This document shows, in pieces, positions 229 to 60,800 of a stretch of DNA of 64,000 nucleotides (its first letter is position 1; each line of letters begins with the position of its first letter). The notes under the pieces were generated by a model. The model searched no databases and was not told where the DNA came from. It worked only from the letters and a program-made list of their open reading frames with translations. The DNA is taken from assembly GCA_023151115.1 (NCBI GenBank), contig JAKLJP010000032.1, positions 3,227 through 67,226 of the forward strand, given 5' to 3'. A program made the translations under genes and the position numbers. The stretch comes from Anaerolineae bacterium (GTDB taxonomy: Bacteria > Chloroflexota > Anaerolineae > 4572-78 > J111).

Positions 229-290
229 AACAGTAACCAATGATCAGTCTGACTGTCTGGCTACTGATTACTGTTCACTGACCACTGCCC
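229..290. repeat. Heptad tract (ACTGNNN) at the MFS stop codon
   Basis: Four consecutive 7-nt units ACTGATT, ACTGTTC, ACTGACC, ACTGCCC run from 263 to 290, with a partly complementary tract (AACAGTAACC...) at 229-250. On the minus strand this tract encodes the last residues (VVSEQ) and the TAA stop of the MFS protein, so the repeat overlaps the end of the gene. Confidence 0.7.
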
Positions 291-1587
291 CAGCTATAGA
301 AGGCGCTTCGCCGGCCCGCGAAACTGATTGGATTCGTGAAACTGCCCCTGGCCGGGTGCGTAGCACCACCAGGGTGAGAGCAATAGCCGCTCCCGTAACC
401 AGGGCCGAGGTCAGAAAGATGCTTTGGGCCGAGAGCCACCAACTAGCAACAGCTACCAATAGCGGACCAACCACCCCGCCCAACGCCGCCGACGACTCTT
501 TGAGGCCCATCACTTTGGCCCGATGTTCCTCGGCGGTCAAGTCGAGATAGAAGGCGCTCAAGGCCGGGGCCAACAGCGCTCCACCCAACCCGGCGATAAT
601 GGCGACCACAAACATCGGCCAGAACCGCTCTACCACCGTCATCCCCAGGTAGAATAACAGGTTCAAGCTAAAGCCAAGGGCAATGATCCAGCGGCGGCCA
701 AAGCGGTCGCTCAGCCGGCCCAGCGTCGTCTGGCCGGCGACCATAGCCAGACCATAACCGCCGACAATCAGGCCAAACTCGGTGGTGGTAAAGCCCAAGT
801 TATCGTAAAAGTAAAAGACCATCTGCGGCTCGATGAAGGCGAAAGCAAATACACTCACAAAGTCGAGCAGCAGCAGCGTACCCAAAATCAGCAGCGGCCG
901 GGGCAGCGAGGCCAGCCAACCGCCTGCTTCGCCATTCGCCGGACGCAGCGCGGCCACCGTCGGGCGCACCAGGACCGAGCGGGTTTCGGGCACCAAAAAA
1001 ATGGCCGATAGCAGCCCCAAAAAAGCCAGTCCTGCCGACAGCCCAAACGGGGCAGCAAAACCCCAGTGATCGTACAGGAAGCCGCCTATGGCCGGGCCAA
1101 AGATAAAGCCAGCCCCATAGCTGCCCATCAAAATCCCCACCCACTGAGCGCGCTGTTGTTCGGGCATAATATCGGCCACCACGCCCATCGCCGACGGCAG
1201 CAGGCCCGCCGTAATCGCGCCCTGGAAGAAACGCACAGCAATGTAAGCGCCGGTTGACTCGACCAGCAGATAGGCCAAGTTCGCCAGCACCACACCGGCC
1301 AGGGCTACGAGGATGAGTGGGCGGCGGCCAAAACGGTCGGCCAGCGTGCCCATAAAAGGAGCTAACAAGAACTGGGCAATAGCAAAGGCCATGGTCATAA
1401 AGCCCAGCGCCTCCACCCCAGAGCCAAATTCGCCCAGGCGCTTGGCAAAGACTGGCATGACAATGCCATAGCCGGTCATCATCAGGCCCACGCTGGCGGC
1501 TAACAGCATGATGATGGTCCGCGCCCGGCGTGGTTCAAACACGACCGCTTCTTTAATGGCAGGTTGATTTTTGGTTGAATGTTCCAT
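268..1587 (-). CDS. MFS transporter, DHA1/Tet-like drug or metabolite exporter
   Basis: About 439 residues with a 12-helix hydrophobicity pattern. MFS motif A appears in the loop after helix 2 (GTLADRFGRRPLIL) and again as a degenerate copy in the second half (GRLSDRFGRRWII), the duplicated 6+6 layout of the superfamily. This indicates proton-coupled transport at the inner membrane, in a Tet/Bcr-like efflux subfamily; the substrate is unknown. I start at the ATG at 1585-1587 (MEHSTKNQ), which has AAAAGGTG upstream. An upstream in-frame start would add 38 non-hydrophobic residues lying in the leader. A terminator follows at 194-224. The last five codons lie in a heptad repeat. Confidence 0.85.
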   Translation of the reverse strand: MEHSTKNQPAIKEAVVFEPRRARTIIMLLAASVGLMMTGYGIVMPVFAKRLGEFGSGVEALGFMTMAFAIAQFLLAPFMGTLADRFGRRPLILVALAGVVLANLAYLLVESTGAYIAVRFFQGAITAGLLPSAMGVVADIMPEQQRAQWVGILMGSYGAGFIFGPAIGGFLYDHWGFAAPFGLSAGLAFLGLLSAIFLVPETRSVLVRPTVAALRPANGEAGGWLASLPRPLLILGTLLLLDFVSVFAFAFIEPQMVFYFYDNLGFTTTEFGLIVGGYGLAMVAGQTTLGRLSDRFGRRWIIALGFSLNLLFYLGMTVVERFWPMFVVAIIAGLGGALLAPALSAFYLDLTAEEHRAKVMGLKESSAALGGVVGPLLVAVASWWLSAQSIFLTSALVTGAAIALTLVVLRTRPGAVSRIQSVSRAGEAPSIAGAVVSEQ

Positions 1588-1733
1588 GATTGCAAACACA
1601 CCTTTTGGGGATAGATTCAATTTCAGTTGGGAATTGGGGCCCAAAGCTTGCTTTGACTCTTCCAAACCAAGGTTTGGCCTCCAATTTCGGCAATCGCCCA
1701 CTCATTTTGGTTACATCCATTTCACACCTGCCC

Positions 1734-1762
1734 AGTATAGCAATGATTAGCCGCCGCGTCAT
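1734..1762 (-). promoter_or_regulatory. Candidate sigma70 promoter of the MFS gene
   Basis: Minus strand: ATGACG (1757-1762), 17-bp spacer, TATACT (1734-1739), with TGC directly before the -10 (extended -10). Predicted start is near 1727, giving a leader of about 140 nt before the ATG at 1587. Confidence 0.45.
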
Positions 1763-1790
1763 CCGATAAAAGGTGTATTCGCGACTCAAC

Positions 1791-1826: not shown

Positions 1827-1843
1827 AACACTTGTTTCTACAC

Positions 1844-3206: not shown

Positions 3207-3270
3207 CTGTGGCTTGTAGGTGATAAGTCCTAGCAATGTTAAAAGAGTTAAGGTAAAGATCAAGTAAATT

Positions 3271-3313
3271 CCCCAATCTCGTTCCCAAACTGAGTTTGGG
3301 AACGAGATTGGGG
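3271..3313. repeat. Perfect palindrome, family A (CTCGTTCCCAAAC)
   Basis: Two perfect 20-bp arms, 3271-3290 and 3294-3313, separated by TGA. Core CTCGTTCCCAAAC / GTTTGGGAACGAG. Copies sharing this core occur at 18903-18943, 23626-23666 and 23697-23727. REP-like dispersed palindrome; its right end (GGGG at 3310-3313) supplies part of the ribosome-binding region of the next gene. Confidence 0.85.
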
Positions 3314-3328
3314 AAAGGCAAACTACTG

Positions 3329-5272: not shown

Positions 5273-6445
5273 GTGTGGTACTTCCGTAGCCCTGAAATTG
5301 TCTTTGGACCGGACGCCCTCGATCATTTGACGCAGTTGAGTGGCCAGCGCGCTTTTATTGTGACCGACGAAACACTGGTCGGCCTGGGCTTTGCCCAACG
5401 AGTCCAGGAAAAATTAACGCTGGCCGGTATTGCCAGCCAGGTTTTTAGCCAGGTTGAAGCCGAACCGGCCATCGCCACCATCCAGCGGGGCGCAGACGCG
5501 ATGGCCGCCTACCAACCGGATTGGGTGGTTGGCCTGGGCGGCGGTTCGGCCATTGATGCCGCCAAAGCCATGTGGATTCTATATGAGAACCCACAGCTTA
5601 ATATTCTTGCCGTCACCCCTTTTGAACCACTGGGGCTGCGTCAAAAAGCTAAAATGGTGGCTATTAGCGCCACCAGCGGCACCGGGGCCGAAGTAACCTG
5701 GGGCATCGTCCTGACTGACCCGGAAGACCAGCGCAAAGTCGCCATCGGCTCACCGGAGAATATCCCCGATATTGCTATTGTAGACCCTTCACTGGCGGCG
5801 ACTATGCCGCCCCAACTTACCGCCGATACCGGCATGGACGCCCTCACCCACGCCATTGAAGGCTATACTTCTACCTGGAACAACGATTTTGCCGATGGCC
5901 TGTGCCTGAAAGCAATCCGGCTTATTTTTGACTACCTGCCCCGCGCCGTAGCCAACGGCGCGGATGAAGAGGCCCGCGAAAAGATGCACAATGCCGCCGC
6001 CATTGCCGGCCTCGGCTTTATCAATTCGATGTGTTCGCTGGCTCATGCGCTGGGGCACAGTCTGGGAGCGGTTTATAATTTGCCGCATGGCCGGACAGTC
6101 GGTTTGTTTTTGCCCTATACCATCCAGTTTAACAGCCTGGGCGACACCCCCCAGCCGCGCTACGCTGACCTGGCCGCGCTGTTAGGTCTACCGGCCGCTA
6201 CACCCCAGCAAGGCGCCGCGAGTCTGGTCCAGGCCATTCGCCGGCTGGCAGCCAACATCGGCCAGCCGCTCTCCATCCGGCAAGCGGCCGAGATTTCGCC
6301 CGCAGACCTGGAAAAAAATCTTGATAAACTTGTTGAAAATGCCGAAAGCGACAGTCAAATTGTCACCCCCACCCGCCCACCCAGCACAGAGGACATCCGC
6401 CAGCTCTTTCTCTATGCTTACCAGGGCAAAGATATTGATTGGTAA
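5273..6445 (+). CDS. Iron-containing alcohol dehydrogenase
   Basis: 390 residues, the usual length for group III (Fe-ADH, FucO/YqhD-like) enzymes, which interconvert an alcohol and an aldehyde with NAD(P). The nucleotide-binding GGGSAIDAAKAMW lies at 89-101. Metal ligands appear intact: Asp189 and His193 in MDALTHAIEG, His258 in SLAHALGHSLG, and His272 in YNLPHGRTVG. The start is GTG 5273 (MWYFRSPEIVFG, matching the family's N-terminus). Substrate cannot be read from sequence. It is separated from the downstream epimerase by a heptad-repeat spacer rather than a close operon junction. Confidence 0.88.
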   Translation: MWYFRSPEIVFGPDALDHLTQLSGQRAFIVTDETLVGLGFAQRVQEKLTLAGIASQVFSQVEAEPAIATIQRGADAMAAYQPDWVVGLGGGSAIDAAKAMWILYENPQLNILAVTPFEPLGLRQKAKMVAISATSGTGAEVTWGIVLTDPEDQRKVAIGSPENIPDIAIVDPSLAATMPPQLTADTGMDALTHAIEGYTSTWNNDFADGLCLKAIRLIFDYLPRAVANGADEEAREKMHNAAAIAGLGFINSMCSLAHALGHSLGAVYNLPHGRTVGLFLPYTIQFNSLGDTPQPRYADLAALLGLPAATPQQGAASLVQAIRRLAANIGQPLSIRQAAEISPADLEKNLDKLVENAESDSQIVTPTRPPSTEDIRQLFLYAYQGKDIDW

Positions 6446-6449
6446 TTAA

Positions 6450-6519
6450 GGTAGACAGTAAACGGTAGACGGGGGATTTTTCTGACTACTGATTACTGAT
6501 TACTGACTTCTGCCCACAA
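6450..6519. repeat. Heptad tract between Fe-ADH and epimerase
   Basis: A purine-rich tract with GTAGACAGTAAACG / GTAGACGG words (6453-6473) is followed by ATTTTT and a pyrimidine-biased tract of 7-nt units: ACTGATT, ACTGATT, ACTGACT, then TCTGCCC. Confidence 0.65.
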
Positions 6520-6530
6520 GGACACCACAC

Positions 6531-7508
6531 TTGATTCTGATTACCGGAGCGAGCGGCTTTCTAGGGCGAAACTTGTGCGAGCATTTAGCCAGCCAGAGCC
6601 ACTCTCTGCGGGCGCTGGTTCGACCGGCCACTGAAACAACTTTTTTAGAGAATTTGGGGATTGAAATTGCCCGCGGCGATGTGACCGATGCTGCTTCGGT
6701 ACAGGCGGCTGTGATCGGCTGTGATTACGTTATCCACGCGGCGGCCCACTTTCGGCTGTGGGGACCTCCACCGCCTTTTGTCAAAACTAACGTCGAAGGC
6801 ACACGCAATGTTTTAGAAGCGGCGCTGGCTGCGGGAGTCAAGCGATTTATTCATATCAGCACTATCATCGTGGTCGGGCCGCAGCCGCCGGGGGTCATCA
6901 TTACCGAGGAGACCCCCTGCCGGCCCTATCCCACCGACAATTATGCCCTGACCAAACACCAGGGTGAACGCCTGGCCCGCGCTTATGTGGATAAAGGACT
7001 GCCGGTGGTTGTTCTCCGCCTGGGCGCACTCTATGGACCGCACGGCCATTATGCCTTTAACCGCCTCTTTTTTGAGGAGTTTCTGCGCAATTGGCGGGTG
7101 CAGGTCCACCAGGGCCGCCATTTTATCTTTCCCTGCTACGTCGGCGACGCGGCCAGGGCGATTGAAACAGCATTGACGCGGGGGCGAGTCGGCGAGGTTT
7201 ATAACATTTCCAACCAGAGCATTTCCCATCACGAGGCCAACTTTATTGTCAGTTGCCTGGCCAATCGCAGCAGTTGGCGGATCAACTTTCCCGGCTGGAT
7301 CATGATCGAGTTTTCTCGGCTGTTAGAGTTTATGGCCCTCTTTACCCGGCGCGAACCCTTTTACCCAAAAAACCTGGAACCGTATGTTTTTCATGACTGG
7401 ATTGTGGATTTCAGCAAAGCCCAGCGCGAGTTAGGGTTTGAACCTTCCACTTTTAGCGAAGGCGCTCAACGCACGCTGGAATGGTATCGGTCTATTGGGT
7501 ACGTGTAG
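6531..7508 (+). CDS. NAD(P)-dependent epimerase/dehydratase (extended SDR)
   Basis: 325 residues. N-terminal Rossmann motif TGASGFLGRNL, the acidic residue after beta-2, and active-site Tyr-X3-Lys in YALTKHQ, with 'HISTIIVVGPQ' just before it. Resembles dihydroflavonol-4-reductase / NAD-sugar epimerase-like SDRs acting on sugar nucleotides, steroids or flavonoid-like ketones; the exact substrate is unknown. The start is TTG 6531 with AAGGA (6517-6521) upstream. The stop codon TAG (7506-7508) lies inside the GTAGCAA repeat that separates this gene from the convergent glycosyltransferase. Confidence 0.8.
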   Translation: MILITGASGFLGRNLCEHLASQSHSLRALVRPATETTFLENLGIEIARGDVTDAASVQAAVIGCDYVIHAAAHFRLWGPPPPFVKTNVEGTRNVLEAALAAGVKRFIHISTIIVVGPQPPGVIITEETPCRPYPTDNYALTKHQGERLARAYVDKGLPVVVLRLGALYGPHGHYAFNRLFFEEFLRNWRVQVHQGRHFIFPCYVGDAARAIETALTRGRVGEVYNISNQSISHHEANFIVSCLANRSSWRINFPGWIMIEFSRLLEFMALFTRREPFYPKNLEPYVFHDWIVDFSKAQRELGFEPSTFSEGAQRTLEWYRSIGYV

Positions 7509-7567
7509 CAAGTAGCAAGGTAGCAAGTAGCAGGGTAACAAAAATGCTACCCTGCTACTTGCTACTT
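7505..7567. repeat. Repeat hairpin holding the stop codons of two convergent genes
   Basis: GTAGCAA / GTAGCAAG words (7505-7539), loop CAAAAAT, then the complementary GCTACCCTGCTACTTGCTAC (7544-7563). Arms pair over about 16 bp with one mismatch. The plus-strand epimerase ends with TAG inside the left arm. The minus-strand transferase ends with TAG at 7555-7557 in the right arm, its last residues TSSK being repeat-encoded. A bidirectional terminator role is plausible. Confidence 0.75.
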
Positions 7568-8592
7568 GTCTTTGCCAACCACCACAACAGGGCCAAAGTC
7601 AGGCCGGCCATCACGGCCAGGGCGACCAGTTTGAAAAGCCGGTCCTCGATGAGGAGGGCCAGCAGGCCAAAAGCGGTGCAGAAAGTGTAGTAGAGCGACA
7701 CAATCTGGCGCTGGCTGAAACCCAAATCAAGCAGGCGGTAGTGGAGATGGTCACGCCCGGCTACGGTGGGATTGCCGCGCTGCCGCCAGCGTTGAACAAT
7801 CAACCAGACCACATCCAGAATGGGAATGCCCAGCACCAGCAGCGCCGTAGCAACTTTGGCCGGGGCCAAAATAGAGAGCGAGGCCAGGGCAAAGCCAAGC
7901 AGCATGCTGCCGCTGCTGCCCATAAAAATACGCGCCGGGTGGAAGTTAAAGGGCAAAAATCCCAGGCAGGCCGCGGCCAGCGCCAGCGGAAACAAGGCCA
8001 CCACCGTCTGCCCCAAGCTGTAGGCATGAATGGCAAAAAGCAAACTGGCAATCGCCGCCACCCCGGCGGCCAGCCCGTCCAACCCATCAAGCCAATTGAC
8101 CGTATTAATCATGCCCATAATCCAAAAAATGGTCAACGGATAGGTAATCCACAGCGGAAAAACGGTGTAGCCGCGGATGGGCAGCGTGACCCGCTCGACG
8201 ATAATATCAAAGCCAATGGCTATCAAGGCCGCACCGAATTGGGCCGCAAATTGGGGCCAGGCAGGCAGTTCGCGCCGGTCATCCCATAACCCAAAGAGAA
8301 AAACAATGGTACTGCCCACCAACACGCCGGTCAGCAGCTTGCGGTCTTCCGCACCGATGGGCGGCCACACTCCCAGCAGACTCAGAGCAAAGACCAGCAA
8401 TCCCGCGCCTACAAAGCCGACGAACAGGGCAATCCCACCAACACGGGGTACTTCCCCCTGGTGCTCCCGTCGCCCGCCGGGCCGGTCAGTCAGCCTCAGC
8501 CGCTGCCCAAGCTTGGCGCTGAAAGGGGTAGTCAGCCAGGTTAGCATAAAAGCAGTGATAAAAATCACTAAATAACTCATCGAACTGAGCAT
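7555..8592 (-). CDS. Undecaprenyl-phosphate sugar-1-phosphate transferase (WecA/TagO-like)
   Basis: 345 residues, polytopic. Family landmarks are 'DRPGGRREHQGEVPRVGG' after helix 1, the Asp-rich FGLWDDRRELP, NTVNWLDGLDGLAAG (catalytic Asp region), IFMGSSGSMLLGF and the histidine-rich loop AGRDHLHYRLLDLG. These belong to the MraY/WecA/TagO polyprenyl-phosphate transferases, which load a UDP-sugar phosphate onto undecaprenyl phosphate at the cytoplasmic face. A separate mraY lies in the dcw cluster, so this copy likely starts a secondary polymer or exopolysaccharide. I start at ATG 8592; TTG 8616 and ATG 8580 are alternatives. Confidence 0.85.
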   Translation of the reverse strand: MLSSMSYLVIFITAFMLTWLTTPFSAKLGQRLRLTDRPGGRREHQGEVPRVGGIALFVGFVGAGLLVFALSLLGVWPPIGAEDRKLLTGVLVGSTIVFLFGLWDDRRELPAWPQFAAQFGAALIAIGFDIIVERVTLPIRGYTVFPLWITYPLTIFWIMGMINTVNWLDGLDGLAAGVAAIASLLFAIHAYSLGQTVVALFPLALAAACLGFLPFNFHPARIFMGSSGSMLLGFALASLSILAPAKVATALLVLGIPILDVVWLIVQRWRQRGNPTVAGRDHLHYRLLDLGFSQRQIVSLYYTFCTAFGLLALLIEDRLFKLVALAVMAGLTLALLWWLAKTSSK

Positions 8593-9357: not shown

Positions 9358-9465
9358 CGAGGAGAACAGAGATAGTAGATGGTAGATGGTGGATAGTAGA
9401 TGGTAGATAGTAGACCTATCCTCTATTCTCTATCTTCCATCCTCTATCCTGTTCTGCCTCGCCTC
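9358..9465. repeat. Two-tract heptad element between sixA and the LURP-like gene
   Basis: Six 7-nt units from 9375 to 9416 (GTAGATG, GTAGATG, GTGGATA, GTAGATG, GTAGATA, GTAGACC), then five units from 9417 to 9451 (TATCCTC, TATTCTC, TATCTTC, CATCCTC, TATCCTG). The purine-rich first tract can pair loosely with the pyrimidine-rich second; the outer GAACAG / CTGTTC ends are complementary. A clear example of the architecture seen across the window. Confidence 0.85.
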
Positions 9466-15780: not shown

Positions 15781-16595
15781 AGCACGCGCTTGAACCAGAT
15801 GAAGTTCTGGCCCAAATAAGAACAGTTCGTTTATTAAATAAGGCCGGTTCATCCTTCTATGGCTCGCCGCAGGAGGATGAACAAATCTCGATTGCCTTGC
15901 TCAATGGCCTGATGGAACTGCAAGGTTTGATGCCGTGGAGTTCCAACTATACCTTTTTGGTAAGTTTGGGCCAACTGGCCGATCAGACCAAGCTGCTGGC
16001 CATTTACAAGCCCTGCCAGGGAGAACGCCCCCTGTGGGACTTTCCCGATGGGACCTTGTGCCGGCGTGAATTTGCCAGCTATCTGGTGAGTCAAGCATTG
16101 GGTTGGCCCAGTATTCCACCGACGGTGTTGCGCGATGGACCTCACGGCCCCGGCTCGGTGCAGCTTTTTATTGATGCCGAATACGAAGCTCACTACTTCA
16201 ACATGCGTGACGACTCCGGTTTTACCGATGAGTTCCGGCGGGTCGCTTTATTTGATTTTATCGTTAATAATGCCGACCGCAAAGGCGGGCACTGCCTTAA
16301 AGCCAAGGATGGCCGGCTGTGGGTCATTGACCACGGACTGACGTTCCACACCGATTTTAAGCTGCGGACGGTCATCTGGGAATTTTGCGAGGAAGCCATT
16401 CCTGCGACTCTATTGAAAGATTTGCAAAGGCTGCAAAGCCAGATGGAAACGTCGTCAGAATTTTGCCAAATCCTGTCCTGTTTGATCAGCACCCGCGAAA
16501 TTCAGGCCTTGAAAAAGCGGCTTGATCGGCTGATTGCCGCCGGCCGCCTGCCAGAACTGCACCCAGGGCGAAACATTCCCTACCCGCCGGTTTAG
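15771..16595 (+). CDS. SCO1664-like protein, PI3/4-kinase-related fold
   Basis: 274 residues. An ATP-binding N-lobe (YTFLVSLG...LLAIYKPCQGERPLWDF, with a Lys placed like the kinase ATP lysine), catalytic-loop-like 'FDFIVNNADRKGGHCL' and metal-binding 'LWVIDHGLTFH' equivalent to DFG. This is the SCO1664 / phosphatidylinositol 3- and 4-kinase-related family; its acceptor is unknown. The 10-bp overlap with DUF3090 and the trio order imply one functional module. A strong terminator follows at 16611. Confidence 0.8.
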   Translation: MVLKHALEPDEVLAQIRTVRLLNKAGSSFYGSPQEDEQISIALLNGLMELQGLMPWSSNYTFLVSLGQLADQTKLLAIYKPCQGERPLWDFPDGTLCRREFASYLVSQALGWPSIPPTVLRDGPHGPGSVQLFIDAEYEAHYFNMRDDSGFTDEFRRVALFDFIVNNADRKGGHCLKAKDGRLWVIDHGLTFHTDFKLRTVIWEFCEEAIPATLLKDLQRLQSQMETSSEFCQILSCLISTREIQALKKRLDRLIAAGRLPELHPGRNIPYPPV

Positions 16596-16610
16596 GATTA
16601 ACAACTTCGT

Positions 16611-16646
16611 AAGAGTCCAGCGACGATGCTGGACTCTTTTTATTTA
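16611..16646 (+). terminator. Rho-independent terminator of the phosphomutase-DUF3090-SCO1664 operon
   Basis: Perfect 11-bp stem AAGAGTCCAGC (16611-16621) / GCTGGACTCTT (16628-16638), six-base loop, then TTTATTT. Confidence 0.9.
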
Positions 16647-16650
16647 AGCC

Positions 16651-16698
16651 GAAAATCACCCTTCGATACGGGCTAACGCCCTACTCAGGATGATTTTC
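16651..16698. repeat. Palindromic element, family B (TTCGATACGG...CTACTCAGGATG)
   Basis: GAAAATCACC at the left pairs with GGATGATTTTC at the right (one mismatch), around CTTCGATACGGG...CCTACTCAGG. A related copy lies at 37002-37050. Each copy's outer arms are self-complementary even though they differ between copies (AAAATCA versus CAGCATC). Confidence 0.75.
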
Positions 16699-16706
16699 GA
16701 GCTAAT

Positions 16707-18158
16707 TTAAGGAATGGGGATAGCAATAGTAATTCCCAGGGCTTGCAACGGCTCGATCAGCACCGCCGGAAACAGGCCCAACAGGACGGTGGCCGCCGAG
16801 AGCAGCACAATCAGCAGCAACAGCAGGGGAGGTTCCTGGACGGTAAAAACAACGGTAGGTCTGGCTGACCCTTTGTTGGATCGGGTCAGCCGGCGTGGCA
16901 ATAAGGTGGACCTGAACCCGCGCAGGTACCCCAGGGCCACCCCCAACCCGGCCAGAGCCAGCAACACAGACCAACCCGGCCCTACCGCCGCCATCGAGCG
17001 CAAAAGCTGCCAGTGGGTGGCAAAACCGGCCGTAAAGGGGGTCCCGGCCAGAGTCAAGCCGCCCAAAGTCAGGCCGGCAGTGGCGATTGGCATTTGTTGG
17101 GCCATCTCTCGCAGTTCAGCAAAACCATCACTTCCGGCGCGGAGGCGAATGGCCGAGGTGCTGGCGGCAATCAAGGTCAAGGCCAGCGCCCGCCCGATTA
17201 AACTAACCAGAATGGTGATAACGCCGGTCTCCCCACCCAGGCCCAATAAGGTCAGGGTACAACCCAGGTCAAACAGCGCGGCATAGCCCATGAGTTCGCT
17301 AAAACCGCGCTGCACACTGGCCGTAATCCCCCCCATCAACGCCGTTGCCACTCCACCCATAATCAGGGCTTGCACCGCTTGCGGCGATTCGACCAGCCAG
17401 GGGAAATCGGCCAGCAGATGGATTAGAGTTGAAAAAGCAATAATGGGAAAAGCGATCAGTACAAAGGCGGCGGTGGCCGGCGCAGACTCGCCGGAGGTAG
17501 TGGTCAGCCAACTATGAAAAGGCACAACCGCCAACCAGAGGGCAAATCCAAAGCCCACCAGCAATGTGGTTTGTTCTAAATTACCACTCGTTTGCAACCC
17601 GCCGCTCAACTGATAAAAGTCAATACGCCAGGCCGCCAGCAAAAACAAGGGCGTCGCCAGCGACATCAGCACCAAAAAGCGCAGGGCAGCGCGGGTAGAG
17701 TCAACTCGCCCCCCTTGAATCACAAAAACCGTTAAAATAACCGCCACTTCAATGAGAATAGCGATAATCCCCAGATGGCGCGACAGGCTGGCCGCCCCCA
17801 AAAGCCCCAAAATAGCCAACCCGGCCGGATAAAAGGTGCGATTGTCACGCCAACTGGTGCTGGCCGCCGTCCGGCTTTCGCGTTTGGGCCGCGTCTGGGG
17901 GAGCAGGGCCGGTATTAAAAAAAGCAGGGCGGTAGCGGCAAACAACAACAACAAAGTTACTTGCGAAAAACGGTCCAACTCGATGCTGCGACCTAAAAAA
18001 TTTAAGATGATGCCGGTCGGCAGCCAGGTAACGAACCAGGCTAAAAGGAGAGCTACTCCTGCGGCCATAATCGCGCCCAGCCCCAGCCGCCGCAGCACAT
18101 AAACAATAGGGACAGCCCCAATGGGTAAAGCGATGAGCCAGAAGGCTTGAGGGATCAA
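16707..18158 (-). CDS. Proton-conducting membrane subunit (NuoN/MrpD-like)
   Basis: 484 residues, about 14 helices. The core resembles the antiporter-like subunits of complex I and Mrp: 'LWLAVVPFHSWLTTTSGESA' followed by 'AFVLIAFPIIAFSTLIHLL' matches the 'PFH.W...A...A' signature, and 'RGFSELMGYAALFDLG' matches the conserved helix with discontinuity. Likely moves protons or Na+ across the membrane. Start chosen at TTG 18158: GGAGGAGG lies just upstream and the TTG overlaps the previous gene's TGA (TTGA), suggesting translational coupling. The longer frame to 18377 would be an antisense-like stretch over the neighbour. Last gene of a three-gene minus-strand module. Confidence 0.75.
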   Translation of the reverse strand: MIPQAFWLIALPIGAVPIVYVLRRLGLGAIMAAGVALLLAWFVTWLPTGIILNFLGRSIELDRFSQVTLLLLFAATALLFLIPALLPQTRPKRESRTAASTSWRDNRTFYPAGLAILGLLGAASLSRHLGIIAILIEVAVILTVFVIQGGRVDSTRAALRFLVLMSLATPLFLLAAWRIDFYQLSGGLQTSGNLEQTTLLVGFGFALWLAVVPFHSWLTTTSGESAPATAAFVLIAFPIIAFSTLIHLLADFPWLVESPQAVQALIMGGVATALMGGITASVQRGFSELMGYAALFDLGCTLTLLGLGGETGVITILVSLIGRALALTLIAASTSAIRLRAGSDGFAELREMAQQMPIATAGLTLGGLTLAGTPFTAGFATHWQLLRSMAAVGPGWSVLLALAGLGVALGYLRGFRSTLLPRRLTRSNKGSARPTVVFTVQEPPLLLLLIVLLSAATVLLGLFPAVLIEPLQALGITIAIPIP

Positions 18159-18887: not shown

Positions 18888-18958
18888 TGTTCGCTTTAGA
18901 TTACTCTCGTTCCCAAACTGACGCGAAGCGTGGGAACGAGAGTAAGATGTTCGCTTTA
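18888..18958. repeat. Family A palindrome flanked by 11-bp direct repeats
   Basis: Arms ACTCTCGTTCCCA (18903-18915) and TGGGAACGAGAGT (18931-18943), 15-nt loop. The 11-mer TGTTCGCTTTA stands on both sides (18888-18898 and 18948-18958), as a target-site duplication would. The right copy contains the stop codon of the minus-strand gene ending at 18956. Confidence 0.8.
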
Positions 18959-22043: not shown

Positions 22044-22170
22044 TACGGTAGACAGTAGACGGTAGACAGGGATAGAAGATAGAGGATAGAGGATAGAGGA
22101 TGGAAGATAGTAAATACTTTTTTGCTATGTACCATCTGCTACCTGCTATTCGCTATCTGCTGCCTGCTAC
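22044..22170. repeat. Heptad tracts between ftsA and ftsZ
   Basis: Plus strand: GTAGACA, GTAGACG, GTAGACA (22048-22068), then six units from 22071 to 22112 (GATAGAA, GATAGAG three times, GATGGAA, GATAGTA), an AT-rich spacer, and GCTACCTGC-type words to 22170. The ftsA stop TAG (22167-22169) lies in the last words. Confidence 0.8.
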
Positions 22171-23393
22171 CCCGGTAAAAACACTTTCAGCCATCCCGGC
22201 ATTTTCAATGAACTCCCACTGGGTTGATGATTAACCTGCTGCGGCAAATCGTGTTTGATGCCCCACTCAAGCAGGCCCACGCTGGTGGTAAAGGCCGGGC
22301 TTTGCAGCGAGTCGACCAGGCCGCGCAAATTCTGCGGCTGGCCGATACGGGCGGGTAAACCCATAATATCACGGGCCAAATCGCGCAAGCCGGCCAGGTC
22401 AGCCACACCTCCGCAAAGCACCAGTCCCGCCGGCAACAGCCCATCGTAGCCGCTGCGCTTGATCTCTTTCAAGACCATCTCCAAAATTTCCTCGGCGCGG
22501 GCTTCGATAATTTCCGACAAAAACTGGCGCGAGATACCCTGCTGGCCATCCTCTCCAAACATATTCACCCTGACCGTTTCTTCGGGCATAATGGTGTGGG
22601 ACAGGGCGTGGCCGTATTTGATTTTTAACTCTTCCGCCGTACTGAAGGGGGTGCGTAACCCCACCGCAATATCGTTGGTCACTTGTTCGCCGCCGGTGGG
22701 CAAAACCACCGTATGCCAGATGCTGCCCTCGATGAAGATGGCAATGTCGGTGGTGCCGCCGCCAATATCCACCAGCACCACCCCCATCTCCCGCTCGATG
22801 TCGGTCAGGGCGGCCTCACCGGAGGCTAACGGTTCCAGCACCAGCGCGTCAATTTGAATCCCGGCATTTTGGACACACTTGATCAGGTTACGGATGGAGG
22901 AGGTTGAGCCGGTGACAATGTGCGCTTCGACTTCCAGGCGGTAGGCTTGCATGCCCAGCGGGTCGCGCACCCCGTCGTCGCCATCTACGGTAAAACCGCG
23001 CGGGATAATGTGCAGAATTTCGCGGTTGTGGGGGATGTCAATGGCGCGGGCCTGCTCCAGCGCCCGTTCGACATCTACCGGGCGGATCCCCCGCTCGCCC
23101 CGGCTGATGGCGACCACCCCCCGGCTGTTGATAGAGCTAATATGCGCCCCGGCCAAACCCACATAGGCGCTGGCAATGCCATAGCCCGAAGTCCGCTCGG
23201 CCCGCTGAACCGACTCGGTGATGGCCGCCGTCACTTCACCTACATTGACCACCACCCCTTTGCGAATGCCCTTCGAGGGGACAACGCCCACCCCAACAAT
23301 GCGCATGGCATTTTCCGGGGGCGGTCCCACTTCGGCGACGAGGGTGCAAATTTTGGTAGTGCCTATATCTAAGGCCACAACTGTCCGGTCCAC
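22167..23393 (-). CDS. ftsA: Cell division protein FtsA
   Basis: 408 residues. Actin-family ATPase that anchors FtsZ to the membrane. Phosphate-1 'VVALDIGTTKICTLVAE', the 1C domain (about 85-165), phosphate-2 'GVVLVDIGGGTTDIAIF', adenosine motif 'GLVLCGGVADLAGL', and a C-terminal amphipathic helix MPGWLKVFLPG expected to insert in the membrane. The last bases and stop fall in a repeat tract. Located between ftsQ (346 bp upstream) and ftsZ. Confidence 0.97.
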   Translation of the reverse strand: MDRTVVALDIGTTKICTLVAEVGPPPENAMRIVGVGVVPSKGIRKGVVVNVGEVTAAITESVQRAERTSGYGIASAYVGLAGAHISSINSRGVVAISRGERGIRPVDVERALEQARAIDIPHNREILHIIPRGFTVDGDDGVRDPLGMQAYRLEVEAHIVTGSTSSIRNLIKCVQNAGIQIDALVLEPLASGEAALTDIEREMGVVLVDIGGGTTDIAIFIEGSIWHTVVLPTGGEQVTNDIAVGLRTPFSTAEELKIKYGHALSHTIMPEETVRVNMFGEDGQQGISRQFLSEIIEARAEEILEMVLKEIKRSGYDGLLPAGLVLCGGVADLAGLRDLARDIMGLPARIGQPQNLRGLVDSLQSPAFTTSVGLLEWGIKHDLPQQVNHQPSGSSLKMPGWLKVFLPG

Positions 23394-23625
23394 CCTAAGC
23401 CTCCTCGCCGCTGGCGGTTAAGAAAGGATGAAGGCTGAAGGAGGAAAGATGAAAAATAGGTTTTATTTTTCGCCTTCGCTCTCCCGCTTTCCACCTTTCT
23501 TTAAAATGTGGCCGAATCAACCAATAAAGCCGGTAAGATGCAAAAATTAGTTTACCACAATATGTAGTATTTTGCAATAGGTTTGACCACAACATCTTGT
23601 GTTTTTCCTTAAAATTTCTCTCATT

Positions 23626-23666
23626 TCTCTCGTTCCCAAACTAACGCGAAGCCTGGGAACGAGAGA
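23626..23666. repeat. Family A palindrome, copy 3
   Basis: Arms TCTCTCGTTCCCA (23626-23638) / TGGGAACGAGAGA (23654-23666), loop containing AACGCGAAGCC, almost the same loop as the copy at 18903. Confidence 0.85.
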
Positions 23667-23685
23667 ATAAGAGCACGGTTCATTT

Positions 23686-23728
23686 TCTCTCGTTCCTCTC
23701 GTGCCCAAACTGAGTTTGGGCACGAGAG
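23686..23728. repeat. Family A palindrome, copy 4, with a truncated neighbour
   Basis: TCTCGTGCCCAAAC (23697-23710) / GTTTGGGCACGAGA (23714-23727) around TGA, the same TGA loop as the copy at 3271 but with a compensated T-to-G change (GTTCCC to GTGCCC, matched by GGGCAC in the other arm). Preceded by a truncated left arm TCTCTCGTTCC (23686-23696). Confidence 0.8.
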
Positions 23729-23730
23729 AC

Positions 23731-23765
23731 TTCTTATTTCTAATTTCTTATTTCTAATTTCTTAT
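23731..23765. repeat. Heptad tract encoding the C-terminus of FtsQ
   Basis: Five perfect 7-nt units TTCTTAT / TTCTAAT alternating from 23731 to 23765. On the minus strand they encode the last residues of FtsQ (DKKLEIRN) and provide its TAG stop. Confidence 0.85.
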
Positions 23766-24609: not shown

Positions 24610-24685
24610 CTTTGGGAGTAGGGAGTAAGTAGTAGGAAGTAGGGGTAAAAAACAACCTGCAACCTGCTACTTGCAACCTGTTACT
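24610..24685. repeat. Heptad tracts between ddl and ftsQ
   Basis: Plus strand GGAGTAG, GGAGTAA, GTAGTAG, GAAGTAG (7-nt period), spacer GGGGTAAAAAACA, then ACCTGCAACCTGCTACTTGC words. The ddl stop TAA (24681-24683) is in the second tract. Confidence 0.75.
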
Positions 24686-25814: not shown

Positions 25815-25839
25815 AAAAACCTCTCAACAACTAAGCTTA

Positions 25840-36982: not shown

Positions 36983-37001
36983 CACAAACCCTTTACTACT
37001 C

Positions 37002-37050
37002 CAGCATCCTTCGATACGGTTTCGCTTCGCTCAACCTACTCAGGATGCTG
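37002..37050. repeat. Palindromic element, family B, copy 2
   Basis: CAGCATCCT (37002-37010) pairs with AGGATGCTG (37042-37050) around TCGATACGG...TCAACCTACTC. Shares CCTTCGATACGG and CTACTCAGGATG with the copy at 16651. Confidence 0.8.
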
Positions 37051-37085
37051 TTTAACTTAATGATAATGACTCATACCTAATCCCT

Positions 37086-37120
37086 TACTACCTACTACCT
37101 ACTGCCTACTCCTTACTCGC
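37086..37120. repeat. Heptad tract at the ftsI stop
   Basis: TACTACC, TACTACC, TACTGCC, TACTCCT, TACTCGC in perfect 7-nt phase. Encodes the C-terminal ASKE of the PBP and its TAG stop (37106-37108). Confidence 0.88.
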
Positions 37121-38815
37121 AACTTCTCCGGTGGCATAATCCGGCGGAATATTCAACAGCACCACCAACTGCTCGGCAATTCGCTTGAAGGTCGGCGCGG
37201 CGGTGGTATTGCCCCAGCGGGAGGTGGTGGGGCGGTCAATAATCACCAAAACTAATACCTGCGGGTCGTTTGCCGGTAGATAACCGGCAAACGAGGCCAG
37301 GGTCAGCGTGGGATGATAGCCGCCGGGAACGGGGATTTCGGCGGTGCCGGTTTTACCGGCCACATCGTAGCCAGGAACCATGGCCTCGGAATTGGCCCGC
37401 TCCAGCGCCTCGACCAGCATGCCGGTCAACGTTTTAGCCGTTTGTTCCGAGACGGCCCGCCGCACTACCACCGGTTCGACCTGAACTTCTCGTTCACTGT
37501 CCACAATGCGGCTGACAATATGGGGCTTCATCAGCAGGCCATTGTTGGCGACTGCCCCCACCGCCAGCGCAATTTGCAGCGGCGTAACCGCAATGCCCTG
37601 CCCAAACGAATTAGTCCCCAGGTCGCTTTCGTGCCAGTCGGCATCTTTGGGTGTTTTGAGTGTGCCCGGTCCCTCGCTGCTCAGATCGGCTCCGGTCAAA
37701 AGGCCAAAGCCAAAGCGCTTGACATAGGTATAAAATCGGTCTTTACCCAGGGCCACCGCCACCTGGGCGATACCGACGTTTAAACTTTTGGCCAACACAT
37801 CGGTCATATCTACGGTTTCGTGAGCCTGGCGGTCCCAGTTATAAATTACCCGTCCGCCGACCTCAATCGAGCCGCCATCATAGATAGTTCCCATCGGCCC
37901 AACGACCCCGGCATCCAGCCCGGCGGCCATCGTCACCACCTTAAAAACCGAACCTGGCTCATACTGGCGGCTGACCACCGGATCAAAATAAAGGTCTTCG
38001 TCGCTGGCCCCGTAATTGTTGGGGTCATAAGTGGGGTAGCTGGCCATACCCAGAATCGCCCCGGTTTTTGGCTCCAACACCACCACCGACCCGCCCTGCG
38101 CCCCGTATTGTTTGACCGCCGATTTTAACTCACGTTCGATCAAATGCTGAATGCTGCGGTCCACCGTTAGATACAAATTAGCGCCGCTGACCGGCGGCAC
38201 ATAATGACTGGCCCCCAGCGGAATAATCTCGCCGAAAGGACTGCGCTCGCCGGTTTGCAAGCCGGCGGCGCCGCGCAGCATATCGTCATAAAATCCTTCC
38301 ACGCCATAAAAACCATTACCGTTACTATTGACAAAACCCAGCAGATGCGCCGCCGAGTCCCCTTCCGGGTAGACCCGCTTGGCTCGCGGCTCAACCTTCA
38401 GCCCAACTATATCCCATTCGATAATCGTTTCCCCCACCGCCTGAGATGCGCCTTTGGCTAAGGGCACCCAGGGGCTGTCATTGGTCAAACTCTTCAACAG
38501 ATCCTCGCGCGGCACATTCAGCAGCCGATACAACCGATCTGCGGTGGCATAAGGGTCGCTGATAATCTTGGGGCTGGCCGAAATATCATATTGAATCACA
38601 TCTGCGGCCAAAATATGCCCATTTCGATCATGGATTTCCCCGCGATGGGGCGGGATGACCAACTCATTCTGGTGCTCGGCCTCAGCCAACTGGGCAAAAC
38701 GATGGTGCTCAAGCACCTGCCAGCGAATCAATTGGCCCACCAGCACCAGTCCCGCTGCCGACATCACGGCCATGACCGTTATAATTCTGTAATTAGAGCG
38801 CTCGGATGTTTTCAT
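37106..38815 (-). CDS. ftsI: Class B penicillin-binding protein (FtsI/PBP2-like transpeptidase)
   Basis: 569 residues. N-terminal signal-anchor helix (about 10-30), dimerisation/pedestal domain with 'RGEIHDRNGHILAADVIQYD', transpeptidase domain with SxxK in EPGSVFKVVT, SxN in KSLNVGIAQ and KTG in VAGKTGTAEI. Cross-links septal peptidoglycan with FtsW. No PASTA repeats at the C-terminus. Located between the ftsL-like gene and murF. The last residues are repeat-encoded. Confidence 0.94.
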   Translation of the reverse strand: MKTSERSNYRIITVMAVMSAAGLVLVGQLIRWQVLEHHRFAQLAEAEHQNELVIPPHRGEIHDRNGHILAADVIQYDISASPKIISDPYATADRLYRLLNVPREDLLKSLTNDSPWVPLAKGASQAVGETIIEWDIVGLKVEPRAKRVYPEGDSAAHLLGFVNSNGNGFYGVEGFYDDMLRGAAGLQTGERSPFGEIIPLGASHYVPPVSGANLYLTVDRSIQHLIERELKSAVKQYGAQGGSVVVLEPKTGAILGMASYPTYDPNNYGASDEDLYFDPVVSRQYEPGSVFKVVTMAAGLDAGVVGPMGTIYDGGSIEVGGRVIYNWDRQAHETVDMTDVLAKSLNVGIAQVAVALGKDRFYTYVKRFGFGLLTGADLSSEGPGTLKTPKDADWHESDLGTNSFGQGIAVTPLQIALAVGAVANNGLLMKPHIVSRIVDSEREVQVEPVVVRRAVSEQTAKTLTGMLVEALERANSEAMVPGYDVAGKTGTAEIPVPGGYHPTLTLASFAGYLPANDPQVLVLVIIDRPTTSRWGNTTAAPTFKRIAEQLVVLLNIPPDYATGEVASKE

Positions 38816-38821
38816 AAGAAT

Positions 38822-38906
38822 TAAAAATTAAGGGTTAAGAAATTAGAAATTAGAATGTAAGAAAGGCGATCAATTCTTTCTTAATTCTTATTTCTTAAAT
38901 TCTCCA
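38822..38906. repeat. AT-rich repeat hairpin between ftsL-like and ftsI
   Basis: AAATTAAGGGTTAAGAAATTAGAAATTAG words facing TTCTTTCTTAATTCTTATTTCTTAAATT, same design in an AT-rich word set. Confidence 0.65.
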
Positions 38907-40324: not shown

Positions 40325-40408
40325 CGGGTTGCAGGGTGCAAGTTGCAAGTTTCAGGTTAAAGACTTCTGCACCCCTGCGACTCTGCTACCCTGCTACCCT
40401 GTTACTTT
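40325..40408. repeat. Repeat spacer between mraZ and rsmH
   Basis: TTGCAGGGTGCAAGTTGCAAG words, then CTGCACCCCTGCGAC, TGCTACCC, TGCTACCC: purine-rich tract followed by a complementary-style pyrimidine tract, ending 2 nt from the mraZ stop. Confidence 0.65.

Positions 40409-42042: not shown

Positions 42043-42060
<18 letters not shown>
41098..42060 (+). CDS. rmd: GDP-4-dehydro-6-deoxy-D-mannose reductase-like SDR
   Basis: 320 residues. Extended [21 protein letters not shown] Rossmann motif, 'NEVYGRVRTDELPVKEDTPL', active-site YGVSK (Tyr-X3-Lys), 'RDFTDVRDVMRAYALLVQHG'. These fit RMD enzymes that reduce GDP-4-keto-6-deoxymannose to GDP-rhamnose. The neighbour gmd makes the substrate, which supports the call; a GDP-fucose-type synthase is less likely. 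Start GTG 41098 with GGAGGA (41085-41090). C-terminal NRVAG and stop TAG are read from the GTAGCAGG repeat. The symbol is by inference. Confidence 0.78.
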
Positions 42061-43191
<1,131 letters not shown>

Positions 43192-43192
43192 T

Positions 43193-43285
43193 GAAGACAC
43201 GAGGATAGAAGATGGTAGATAGAAGATAGCAGAAATCAGTGTTCCTTCTTATTTATCATCCATCTACTATCTTCTATTCACTCTT
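43193..43285. repeat. Heptad tracts after gmd
   Basis: GATAGAAGATGGTAGATAGAAGATAGCAG words (43206-43232), spacer, then CATCCATCTACTATCTTCTATTC. Purine then pyrimidine tract, 7-nt spacing of GATAGAA / GATGGTA / GATAGAA / GATAGCA. Confidence 0.75.
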
Positions 43286-46049: not shown

Positions 46050-46131
46050 AATTGTGAATGGTGAATTGTCAATAGTGAATTGTTAATGAGTGTCAAACCA
46101 TTCACAATTCATTATTCACAATTCACAATTA
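46050..46131. repeat. Heptad hairpin upstream of the CotH-type gene
   Basis: GTGAATGGTGAATTGTCAATAGTGAATTG (46055-46083) facing ATTCACA, ATTCATT, ATTCACA, ATTCACA (46100-46127). Strong potential stem; it ends at the Shine-Dalgarno of the next gene. Confidence 0.85.
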
Positions 46132-51745: not shown

Positions 51746-51808
51746 TAAGGCTAAGGCTAAAGCTGAGGCTAAGGCAAGAAAATTAATCTTAGCCTTAGCC
51801 TCAGCCTT
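51746..51808. repeat. Repeat hairpin between protease and propeptide-like genes
   Basis: AAGGCTAAGGCTAAAGCTGAGG (51746-51767) facing CTTAGCCTTAGCCTCAGCC (51788-51806), unit here 6 nt (GGCTAA / AGCTGA). Same purine-then-pyrimidine design. Confidence 0.75.
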
Positions 51809-57773: not shown

Positions 57774-57828
57774 AGGTTGGATTTTAATATAACCTATTCC
57801 AAACTACAAGCAAATATTAGAGTAATAA

Positions 57829-57861
57829 AACCGCCGCAAGATGGTATCTCTTGCGGCGGTT
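57829..57861 (-). terminator. Terminator hairpin, family C, of the alpha-2-macroglobulin gene
   Basis: Perfect 13-bp stem AACCGCCGCAAGA (57829-57841) / TCTTGCGGCGGTT (57849-57861), followed on the minus strand by TTATTA. Just upstream of dcm. Confidence 0.75.
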
Positions 57862-57898
57862 GGTTGTTCTACGGCGGTCTGCCGTCAGCGGTCTGTGG

Positions 57899-60800
57899 TC
57901 ACTCCGTCACCCGGAACACCCCCCCATCCCCGCGCCCAAACACCTCCGGGAAGTACATCTCCTCGGCGTGAGTGGGGATGACCCGGAACTCGCCGGGGAT
58001 GGAGGCGCGAATGGAGTAGGTATACTCATAGGTGCCTTTAGGCAGATAAGTGGCAAACAGGGCCGCCTTCTCGTCGCGCAGTTCGCTGTGCGAGAACCAC
58101 CACCAGCCGTAGCCGCCGCCCCAGGGATTGCGCCGGTCGGTGCGGGTCAGCTCCGGCTGCTCGCCGACGACGCTGGTGGTAGCCAGGCTGGCGTCAATAC
58201 CCTCGGTGCCGGCGGGGAAGGGGTCTTCGACCACGACGTAGTGCAAATCATTGGGGGCGATAATGGTCAGCTTGACCCGGATAATGTCGCCCACTTTGGC
58301 TTCGGTGATGGGTTTGCCATCTTCGTCACCTTCCAGGCTGTACTGGCGGGAGACGATAATCCCCCGGTCCAGCGCTTTGACTTCCTGCACCGGCTTGTAG
58401 TAGGTCAGGTAAGCCGAGTAATACAACCGCCCCGGCGACTCCTCGGACACGTCGCCGCCGAGCGGGTCGCGCTCAATCGCCAGCCGGTTGACGGCATCCG
58501 CCAGTAAATCTCCAATCTCCAATCTCAGCTTAACCGTTTCGTCAATATTCTCTTCATTGACCGTGCCTTCGCCCAACCCTTCGCCGTTCAAGGTGACATT
58601 CCAGGCATAGTTGCCTTCCAGTTCGCCGGTGGCCACCATAAAATCGGTCAGGCCGATGATAGCCCAGGCCGTTTCCTGGGTGGTTTCCCAGTGGCCGCCG
58701 TTCTCGCGGACGCTCATCAGCCAGCGCACGGCGTTAGCCAGCAGCGGGTGATCGGGCTGGATGCGCGACAGGGCGGCGATGATGATGGCCGTGCTGCGGG
58801 TGTCGGTGTTCATGGCGTAGTAATCCACCTGGGCCTCTTCCCAATGCGCCCCGGTCGCGCTGACAATGGCCGCACTGGTGATGTCGTCGAGCAGGGTGTC
58901 AATCTGGCTGGCATTTTCGTCCAGCAGGTGGATGGCCATGGCCAGGTAAGCCCGGCCAAAGAGGTCCAGCTTTTGCCGCTGATCAAATAGGGCGATGCTG
59001 CGGCCCAGATCGCCGGAGCCGGCTTCGGCCAGCACGTAGAGGATGAAGGCCTGGCGGTTGCCCTGCCACGAGTCCTCGATGTCTTTGGGGGCGGTCAGAC
59101 TGGCCTCCAGGTAAGAGATAGCCTGCTCGACCACGTAATCATCCACCGGGAAGTCGGCCCGGCGGGCCTCGACCAGGCCCAATAGGACGTAAGCGGTCAG
59201 GAAGGGGTTGCTCTCGTCCAGCACCCACCAGCCCCAGCCGCCGTCCACGTGCTGCTGGCTGTAGAGCCGCTGTAAACCCAGGCCGACCAGTCCGGGCAGC
59301 TTCGCTTCCAGTTCCGGGTTGTTCATGTTGAGCTGCTCGTAAGCGCGGAAGGTGAAGACGTTGGGCAAAAAGCGGCTGACCGTCTGCTCGGTACACTCGT
59401 AGCGGAAATGCTCCAGGTAGGTCAGCCCATCGCGCATGCCGGCGGCCAGGCTGGGGTCTACGCTCACGGTCAGGTCGCCCTGGGTCGGGTCGAAATTGGC
59501 CGGGAGCGCAATGCCTTCGGTGCGCGTGCCGTCTTCGACCAGCACCCCAGCAGTGGCGACGGTTTCCGGCGTGCTAAAGCGATAGATGGGCAGGTCAAAG
59601 GTCAGCGCGTCGCCGTAATCGGCGGATTTCGCGCCCATGGTCAGGCTGGCCGTTTCGGCATCCGTGACCGTCACCTTGAACTCAACCTTGATGCGTTCTC
59701 CATTCTTGACCTCTAGAGTAGGTGTACCCTCGCTCTGCCATTCGCCATTCGCTATTCGCCATTCCCCAATCTCTAACCCTGCCGCCTCAAACCTGGCTTC
59801 GACCTCCTGCGTTGCTTGGGTATTGTTCTGGACAATCAGGCCCAAGACGGCCTCATCGCCGACCACAAAGAAGCGCGGGGCGACCGGGCGGACCAGCAGC
59901 GGCTTGGCGCTGACAATCTCGACCGTACTTTCGCCCACCAGGGTATCAGCCCCGGTGACGCCCTTGCCGGTCAGGGTCCAGGTGGTCAGGTTGTCGGGCA
60001 GCTTGGCCTCGACCGTGCCCTCGCCGTTTTCGTCGGTGGTGAAGTCGGCAATCCAGAGGGCCGTATCTTTGAACTCGCCCCGAATGTTGCCAAAGCCTTC
60101 GTCAAAGCCGCCGCCGCCGCCCTTGGCTTCGGGGGCTACGGCCAGGTTGATGCGGTCAATGGCCAGGGTCAGGCCGCCGGCGGTGGTCACGCCCAGACCG
60201 CGCGTGCGCCAGAAAGTGCTCAAAAGCTGGCCCGGTGTTTCCGGGGCCAGGGTTAGCACGGCCTTGTCTACCAGAGCCAGGGAGAGTTCGGCCTTGACCG
60301 GCTGGCCCTGCGCGTCGGTGACCTGCACCTTGTATTCGGCGGTTTCGCCGGGTTGGTAGGTTTCCTCGGCGGGTTTGTTGGGGGTTAAAGTAATTTGTAA
60401 CTGCTTTTCGCTGGTGTTGATGGGCAGGCTGGCGTAGCCGACCTTAAAGCTGGGCAGTTCGCCGCTGACCTGCTCTTCTTCGCCGACGGTAATCAGCGAA
60501 GGCGGCGAGATAACCACCACCGAGACGTACATGTTGGGGATCATCTCCTCGGTGATGGGGATTTCAAGCTGCTCGCTGTTGGTGGGCAGTTCGGTCACGT
60601 AGTGGTCGTAGATGTGGCCGCGCTCCAGCGTAACCAAAGCCTTGACCGTGCCGCTGTAAGGGTGAGGCACCAGCACCGTGGCCGTATCGCCGATGTTGTA
60701 CTCGCGTTTGTCGGCCACCAAATCAATCCGGTCGTTGTTTTCCTGCCGCCAGTTGACATACTCCGCGCCGCTGACCCACATGTAGGTTGAGGAACGGATT

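Follow-up and report, generated by a model that had tools for sequence, protein, structure and literature searches.

Heptanucleotide repeats (heptads) have long been known in bacteria. The short tandemly repeated repetitive (STRR) sequences of cyanobacteria are tandem heptads that lie between genes, as do the arrays described here, and their words are different ones. We analysed a 64,000-nucleotide stretch of bacterial DNA (the window) in which arrays of 7-nt units, built from many words, occur mainly between genes and in part form hairpins. These hairpins are a variant of the known heptads: the G-rich arm comes first at almost every locus, and sites keep a hairpin while its words drift or give way to others, in some cases on both arms. 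The polarity is new. Our literature search, with most subscription journals outside its reach, found no title or abstract on the polarity of heptad hairpins or on word replacement at many intergenic sites.

Among longer simple repeats, heptads are reported to be the commonest class in most of the bacterial genomes examined, for which a reason has only been suggested; a preference of slippage for 7 nt was proposed by Mrazek 2007 (both as cited in PMC4679880). Passages from four accounts allow a closer comparison. Chloroflexus aurantiacus, from the same phylum as the window, carries 22 (GATAGRA)n satellites (PMC6749651), a heptamer whose word is also that of the window arrays at 22071 and 43201, but that text describes one-word satellites and mentions no hairpin, polarity or word replacement. 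The P6b stem of the Nostoc trnL intron (PMC4476775) is likewise a fixed-site stem made up of complementary heptads, in which the word class was repeatedly replaced and the structure kept; it is, however, a single group I intron locus with two word classes, compared with many intergenic loci and 77 classes here. The TAACTGA repeats of Beggiatoaceae and cyanobacteria (PMC4679880) resemble our arrays as intergenic heptads near start codons, with 7-nt indels between relatives and other heptads intermixed at some sites, but consist of one word in direct repeats, mostly forward to the start codon in the Guaymas genome. Repetitive extragenic palindromic (REP) sequences and their associated tyrosine transposases (RAYT) share with our elements the form of small dispersed extragenic hairpins and, in Xanthomonas recB, the presence of different REPs at about one site; they differ in their GTAG or CGTC tag, their length of 20–40 bp and their transposase association, and those passages mention no heptads (PMC3733652). 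Many of the words found here contain neither GTAG nor CGTC, a comparison made on the words themselves.

Period-7 arrays and paired arms

Sequence comparison places the window in the Anaerolineales (Chloroflexota), near the metagenome-assembled genomes H5_CFX5 and H5_CFX7. Its Ddl (24681–25814) is 97% identical to that of H5_CFX5 (L001) and 86% to that of H5_CFX7 (L002), synteny with both relatives extends over most of the window, and nucleotide identity is mostly 90–92% and 75–82%, respectively. We scanned 560 kb and a further 240 kb of H5_CFX5 and 800 kb of H5_CFX7; some of the sequence scanned in each relative is the orthologue of the window, so that word sets and locus counts are not fully independent. 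No Rfam match was found in the window at the gathering score.

With a score of at least 12 required for an array, the window contains 23 arrays of period 7, compared with 1 of period 6, 4 of period 8 and 1 of period 9; periods 14 and 21 appear as harmonics. No period-7 array reached this threshold in 60 local triplet shuffles of the window. An excess of period 7 over its neighbours, as proposed in an earlier note on this DNA, is thus confirmed, and it recurs in the 560 kb of H5_CFX5 (119 arrays versus 5 of period 6 and 35 of period 8), in its further 240 kb (25 versus 3 and 8) and in H5_CFX7 (83 versus 12 and 16). Ten of the 11 loci listed in that note exceed 11.0, the top value among the maxima of 20 shuffles; the remaining one, 263–290, scores 9.5 and falls inside the shuffle range. 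The units had been described as uninterrupted, but the arrays are in fact degenerate. Period 7 was also the commonest of ten periods tried in a sample from many phyla (L017–L080, 64 loci, 1.02 Mb), with 28 arrays compared with 18 of period 14, 11 of period 6 and 9 of period 9, at a density about thirteen times thinner than in the window. Loci from Kuenenbacteria (L046), Deltaproteobacteria (L060), another Anaerolineae (L038) and Ignavibacteria (L029) carry heptad arrays, some with hairpins, whose words mostly differ from those of the main set.

Like STRR sequences, the arrays consist of tandem 7-nt units and are mainly intergenic. In H5_CFX5, 40 of 119 lie mostly within open reading frames (ORFs), where 106 would be expected, given ORFs called by a simple greedy method that may include some spurious ones.

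An array was taken to have a hairpin partner when a reverse-complementary score of at least 14 was reached. Such a partner was present in the array's own 100-bp flank for 55 of the 119 H5_CFX5 arrays, for 7 of 25 in the second stretch of that genome, for 26 of 82 arrays in H5_CFX7 and for 9 of the 23 window arrays; control partners in another array's flank numbered 3, 2, 2 and 1, respectively. Complementary tract pairs therefore exceed chance (55/119 versus 3/119 in H5_CFX5) without being general. The earlier statement that most loci are paired holds for only 4 of the 11 listed (9375, 22048, 25840 and 46100), which have a partner of at least 14 in the flank or interval, and at 26262–26329 there are two tracts that do not pair with each other. 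Words are reverse-complementary (distance 0–1; null 4.5%) in 38 of the 113 pairs of neighbouring tracts.

Polarity of the hairpins

The hairpins have a polarity that the earlier note does not mention. At 78 hairpin loci the G-rich arm came first in 70, the C-rich arm in 7, and 1 was mixed; arrays in which G equals C, and those lacking a partner of score 14, had been excluded beforehand. Exact inverted repeats overlapping heptads gave the same picture both between genes (52 G-first, 3 C-first, 4 equal) and in ORFs (15, 2 and 4), and intergenic inverted repeats free of heptads showed no polarity (116, 117 and 37). Exact whole-genome searches with three words returned 55 loci G-first and 0 C-first, with overlapping matches merged and at least two G001/G002 pairs orthologous. 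GTAGAY hairpins accounted for 18 loci in H5_CFX5 and 9 in H5_CFX7, CAGTARY hairpins for 13 and 10, and GATAGRA hairpins for 5 in H5_CFX5, the reverse order giving 0 for every word. A backwards control had 11 matches in genome G001 because the control pattern is itself G-first. Neither GTAGAY nor CAGTARY hairpins were found in G010 in either order by exact search, and exact GATAG hairpins occurred in 1 of 400 Chloroflexota genomes (G001).

The bias extends to period-8 arms (27 G-first to 1) and, in the main set, to period-9 arms (8 to 3), with arms counted singly in these and the next two comparisons. It is weaker elsewhere: 9 G-first and 4 C-first in other genomes of the family, and 6 G-first, 2 C-first and 1 equal in other phyla. 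Both loci of the Trichormus plasmid NC_007410 are G-first. Where the G/C and A/T skews conflict, it is G that decides (33 versus 10 arms).

Convergent gaps keep the polarity (11:1), and single tracts in co-directional gaps have no sense-strand bias (27 G-sense, 35 C-sense), which argues against translation or R-loops as its cause. A ribosome-site cause (first count) and a transcription-linked origin (second count) thus found no support. Single tracts within ORFs are more often C-sense (40 to 17), which fits avoidance of stop codons.

We regard it as improbable that the hairpins are RNA elements selected in mRNA for stability, attenuation or termination. Conserved occupancy of gaps (see below) would suit such a role, as would the distribution of arrays over gaps of at least 40 bp, with 86 of 602 co-directional, 15 of 170 divergent and 14 of 139 convergent gaps occupied, but these same counts show no enrichment of convergent gaps. 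A T tail or A lead is scarcer in heptad inverted repeats (9 of 59) than in others (77 of 270), and mismatches in co-directional gaps have no sense G–U preference (14 sense, 22 antisense). Unit variants are unmatched between arms, and arrays also occur inside genes. Intrinsic terminators were not supported, in view of the tails and the convergent gaps, and neither was selection for RNA pairing, in view of the lack of a sense G–U bias and of unit register between arms.

Word turnover and possible origin

The 250 arrays of the window, the two H5_CFX5 stretches and the H5_CFX7 stretch use 77 of 1,172 possible word classes, and several loci have words in common, contrary to the claim that the word is different at every locus; the AAGGATG class alone accounts for three window arrays (23424, 27886 and 34488). 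The words are mutually dependent and form a limited lexicon. All but one of the 77 have a one-substitution neighbour within it (random fraction 0.76 ± 0.06), and 19 of 25 arrays of one H5_CFX5 stretch use words present in the other. A lexicon common across phyla was rejected (3 of 35 arrays of L003–L080 match, versus 6.7% by chance), as was seeding of words by stop codons, for which distinct words are not enriched (0.524 versus 0.518 shuffled); intergenic arrays show a mild enrichment in that test (0.703 versus 0.604 ± 0.034).

Sites are conserved between genomes. For 33 pairs of window and H5_CFX5 gaps, both were occupied in 11, one only in 2 and 2, and neither in 18 (Fisher 2.6e-5); the 53 H5_CFX5/H5_CFX7 pairs gave 8, 10, 3 and 32 (p = 0.004). 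The orthologous H5_CFX5 interval holds an array for 17 of 19 window loci, the orthologous H5_CFX7 interval for 7 of 18 window loci and 16 of 35 H5_CFX5 loci. Taking word distance as the smallest over all words of the orthologous interval (null mean 3.08), the 17 window/H5_CFX5 loci have distance 0 in 8, 1 in 3, 2 in 3, 3 in 2 and 4 in 1 case. In the gaps shared by H5_CFX5 and H5_CFX7 the distance is at least 3 in 6 of 8 (5 of 8 with H5_CFX7 as the starting genome).

Replacement can be complete. Read by eye, as were all arm comparisons across species (25834, 34488, 43201 and 6450), both arms have switched between species at 25834, 34488 and 43201, and the arms still match within each species. 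The ddl–ftsQ gap, for which 6 of 11 supplied sequences were read, carries a different word in each of five genomes (that of the window, H5_CFX5, H5_CFX7, G010 and G011) and is bare, a few bases long, in G005 and G006; the loci of G004, G007, G008 and G009 had no array at threshold 12. At a further site the hairpin is of the GTAGACR type in H5_CFX5 (L223), and in H5_CFX7 (L233) it is AGTGAAC/CAGTAAT.

Point mutation with homogenisation inside each array, that is, concerted evolution without exchange between loci, would account for orthologous words being nearer than random (1.12 for window/H5_CFX5 and 2.0 for window/H5_CFX7, versus 3.08) and for a lexicon that forms a one-step network. We nevertheless think it very improbable as the only process: at 25834, 27290 and 43201 the word distances of 3, 3 and 4 are random-like at about 92% flank identity, a period-7 hairpin has turned into a period-8 one at a single site (H5_CFX5 382917 in the joined stretch, by eye), and apices recur at unlinked loci.

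The reading that we prefer, tentatively and with a confidence somewhat short of even, is that these hairpins, most of which lie between genes and turn over fast, arise at the DNA level through 7-nt slippage, fold-back of the G-rich strand and copying between loci. Slippage by about 7 nt would first produce heptad tracts. The G-rich strand would then fold back at its 3′ end and be extended on itself, placing an inverted copy downstream of the G-rich tract; we suggest self-priming because the polarity places the inverted copy downstream of the G-rich strand. The outcome would be a G-rich arm, a loop, usually AT-rich, and a C-rich arm, on either strand. Hairpins stay at their sites, as seen above, while mutation, slippage and copying from other hairpins would alter the word, often in both arms and sometimes in one, as in the chimera at 6450–6512. 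Copying between loci is needed too, given the common apices and some common loops at unlinked loci; it might proceed by arm conversion or by transposition, between which the data do not decide. Hairpin sites are often beside stop codons between co-directional genes and at times intragenic, and since the elements occupy sites tolerant of insertion they probably have no dedicated function in the cell.

The earlier note had inferred a generating mechanism rather than copying of one element. One period with many words, and drift or replacement at orthologous gaps, support the mechanism; copying between loci probably contributes as well, given that GTAGACR and CAGTARY hairpins often share their apex despite unrelated flanks. 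Alternatively, each word might represent a family of small mobile hairpins, similar to REP/REPIN elements or to the short dispersed repeats known from cyanobacteria, which a transposase would move in trans and whose heptads would then vary by slippage. We consider this possible, if on the whole unlikely. The GTAGACR hairpins, at the 18 and 9 loci counted above, have a common word, phase and arm size, mostly three to four units per arm, and 14 of 23 parsed have a strict GGG...CCC apex; CAGA...TCTG closes 7 of 15 parsed CAGTARY loci (by eye). A few near-identical loops occur at unrelated loci (L237/L243 and L236/L240), the flanks of 40 fetched loci are unrelated with the exception of two pairs of orthologues and two short matches (26 and 33 bases), and orthologous gaps without a hairpin exist. 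Most loops, by contrast, differ among loci (those of GTAGACR hairpins are AT-rich and varied in sequence and length), no target duplication, such as accompanies the fixed terminal inverted repeats of miniature inverted-repeat transposable elements, was seen by eye at the loci compared, and one gap, ddl–ftsQ, has been re-occupied by different words. As to an enzyme, nine of the ten genomes have Y1 transposase domains, eight of them over the cut-off, but four of the six Y1 genes of H5_CFX5 and H5_CFX7 lack a period-7 array in the 3.6–3.8 kb retrieved and the other two have arrays 1.1–1.2 kb away. No tyrosine transposase gene flanked by repeats, as in REP/RAYT systems, was thus seen at these six loci of two genomes, and the hairpins were not linked to a Y1/RAYT transposase, though one may still be involved. 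Reverse transcriptases showed no pattern, with 1 in each of the two heptad-rich genomes and 3 in G009, whose 15.8-kb sample has no array.

Several observations weigh against the fold-back proposal itself. The preferred apices, and a few near-identical loops, recur at unrelated loci as if whole elements had been copied. The arms of the 23 GTAGACR hairpins are near-uniform, with four units in 11 of 23 on the 5′ side and 16 of 23 on the 3′ side; the C-rich arm is if anything the longer, a result that does not follow from simple fold-back. Unit order is not mirrored between arms; its mean percentile over 23 hairpins is 0.35, less than the permuted mean (Wilcoxon p = 0.02), and the variable position of GTAGACR is matched in 12 of 44 cases, with 21 expected, so that no trace of recent templating is seen. 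With one orthologue dropped, 16 of 65 variable positions of GTAGACR were matched (permuted mean 30, P = 0.0002); as these loci lack independence, we interpret the mismatch excess as a founder effect, and it is absent from CAGTARY (14 of 23 and 13 of 23 matched, 11.1 and 10.0 expected). Neighbouring tracts have unrelated words (distance at least 3) in 48 of 113 pairs, and 5 of the 7 C-first loci belong to one H5_CFX7 word type (GGTCNGC/GACCGNC). A dedicated arm-rewriting activity at sites that keep their hairpin seems improbable; in this reading an enzyme or template-switching complex that primes on the G-rich 3′ strand would overwrite one or both arms with heptads from a lexicon specific to each genome, and would set the word, the arm length of about four units and the polarity. 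Polarity and word swapping suggest that small repeats are made and remade here in an unusual manner. Strict polarity, fast turnover of words at fixed sites and many loci per genome make the generating mechanism testable in its priming direction, the role of hairpin nucleases and the possible copying of arms between loci.

Loci along the window

At 6450–6512 a chimeric hairpin, read by eye, joins a 5′ arm of GTAGACA/GTAAACG and a 3′ arm of CTGACTA around the apex GGGGGATTTTT; this combination of a GTAGAC-type and a CAGTA-type arm is present in the window, H5_CFX5 and H5_CFX7. Over 6440–6540 each relative has a different palindromic insert, resembling a miniature inverted-repeat transposable element, in its 3′ heptad arm, and the window has none. 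The GTAGCAA/TTGCTAC hairpin at 7505–7568 corresponds to a GACCGCC-type hairpin in the orthologous gap of H5_CFX7, and an AGATAGT/CTATCCT hairpin, G-rich arm first, lies between convergent ORFs at 9370–9450.

The region from 22 to 29 kb encodes ftsA, ftsQ, ddl, murB and a Mur ligase (Pfam search of ten window ORFs), the last taken as murC; the ORF after ftsA is called ftsZ by its position. Upstream of this putative ftsZ, a GTAGACA plus GATAGAA/CTGCTAC hairpin (22045–22171) has another word in each relative. The AAGGATG array upstream of ftsA (23424–23457) keeps its word in H5_CFX5 and has no array in H5_CFX7. Variation in unit number between relatives, which the earlier note had suggested checking, is seen at the TTCTTAT array (23731–23775), with about 4.6 units in the window and a far longer array at the equivalent place in H5_CFX5. 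In the ddl–ftsQ gap a GGGAGTA/CAACCTG pair (24614–24685) is replaced by CAGTAGT in H5_CFX5 and GTAGACG in H5_CFX7, G005 and G006 having no hairpin. In the ddl–murB gap, the GAGATTG/CAATCTC hairpin (25834–25897) has a GCGTGAT hairpin as its H5_CFX5 counterpart and no array in H5_CFX7. The GCGTGAT array at 27049–27090 is GTGGTGC-type in H5_CFX5, where the ACTCCCT array at 27290–27335 is matched by a TTCTTAT hairpin.

Some arrays are intragenic. The mutually non-complementary GACCGAG and CTGACCC tracts (26262–26329) lie inside murB, between two Pfam domains, and the GGATGAA array (27886–27925) inside murC, with a GCGAGGAG-type repeat in H5_CFX5; heptads thus place variable peptide stretches in these cell-wall genes, the murC word varying among relatives. 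An ORF of 2010 amino acids contains an AATCTCC array (58507–58526) and a GCCATTC array (59737–59771).

The AAGGATG/CCTTCAT hairpin at 34488–34557 has an AGGAGTA/CCTACTC hairpin in the equivalent gap of H5_CFX7, and the TACTACC array at 37086–37120 is absent there. A TAAGAAT/TTCTTAA hairpin lies at 38815–38897, a GATAGAA/CTATCTTCTATTC hairpin at 43201–43279 (GAATGGC/GCCATTC in the equivalent H5_CFX5 gap), and an AATTGTG/ATTCACA hairpin at 46050–46130.

Other repeats accompany the heptads. Period-8 and period-6 arrays lie at 40373–40405, 42045–42107 and 51746–51808; the period-6 pair forms a G-first hairpin, and the period-8 arrays have no partner of score 14. Intergenic variants of another dispersed palindrome (CTCGTTCCCAAACT...GGGAACGAG) occur at 3270–3315, 18895–18945 and 23600–23730, and H5_CFX5 seems by eye to carry a GAATGGC hairpin at the second of these places. 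A palindrome around CCTTCGATACGG...CCTACTCAGGATG recurs at 16590–16760 and 36980–37060, its interior at the former site being inverted between the window and H5_CFX5.

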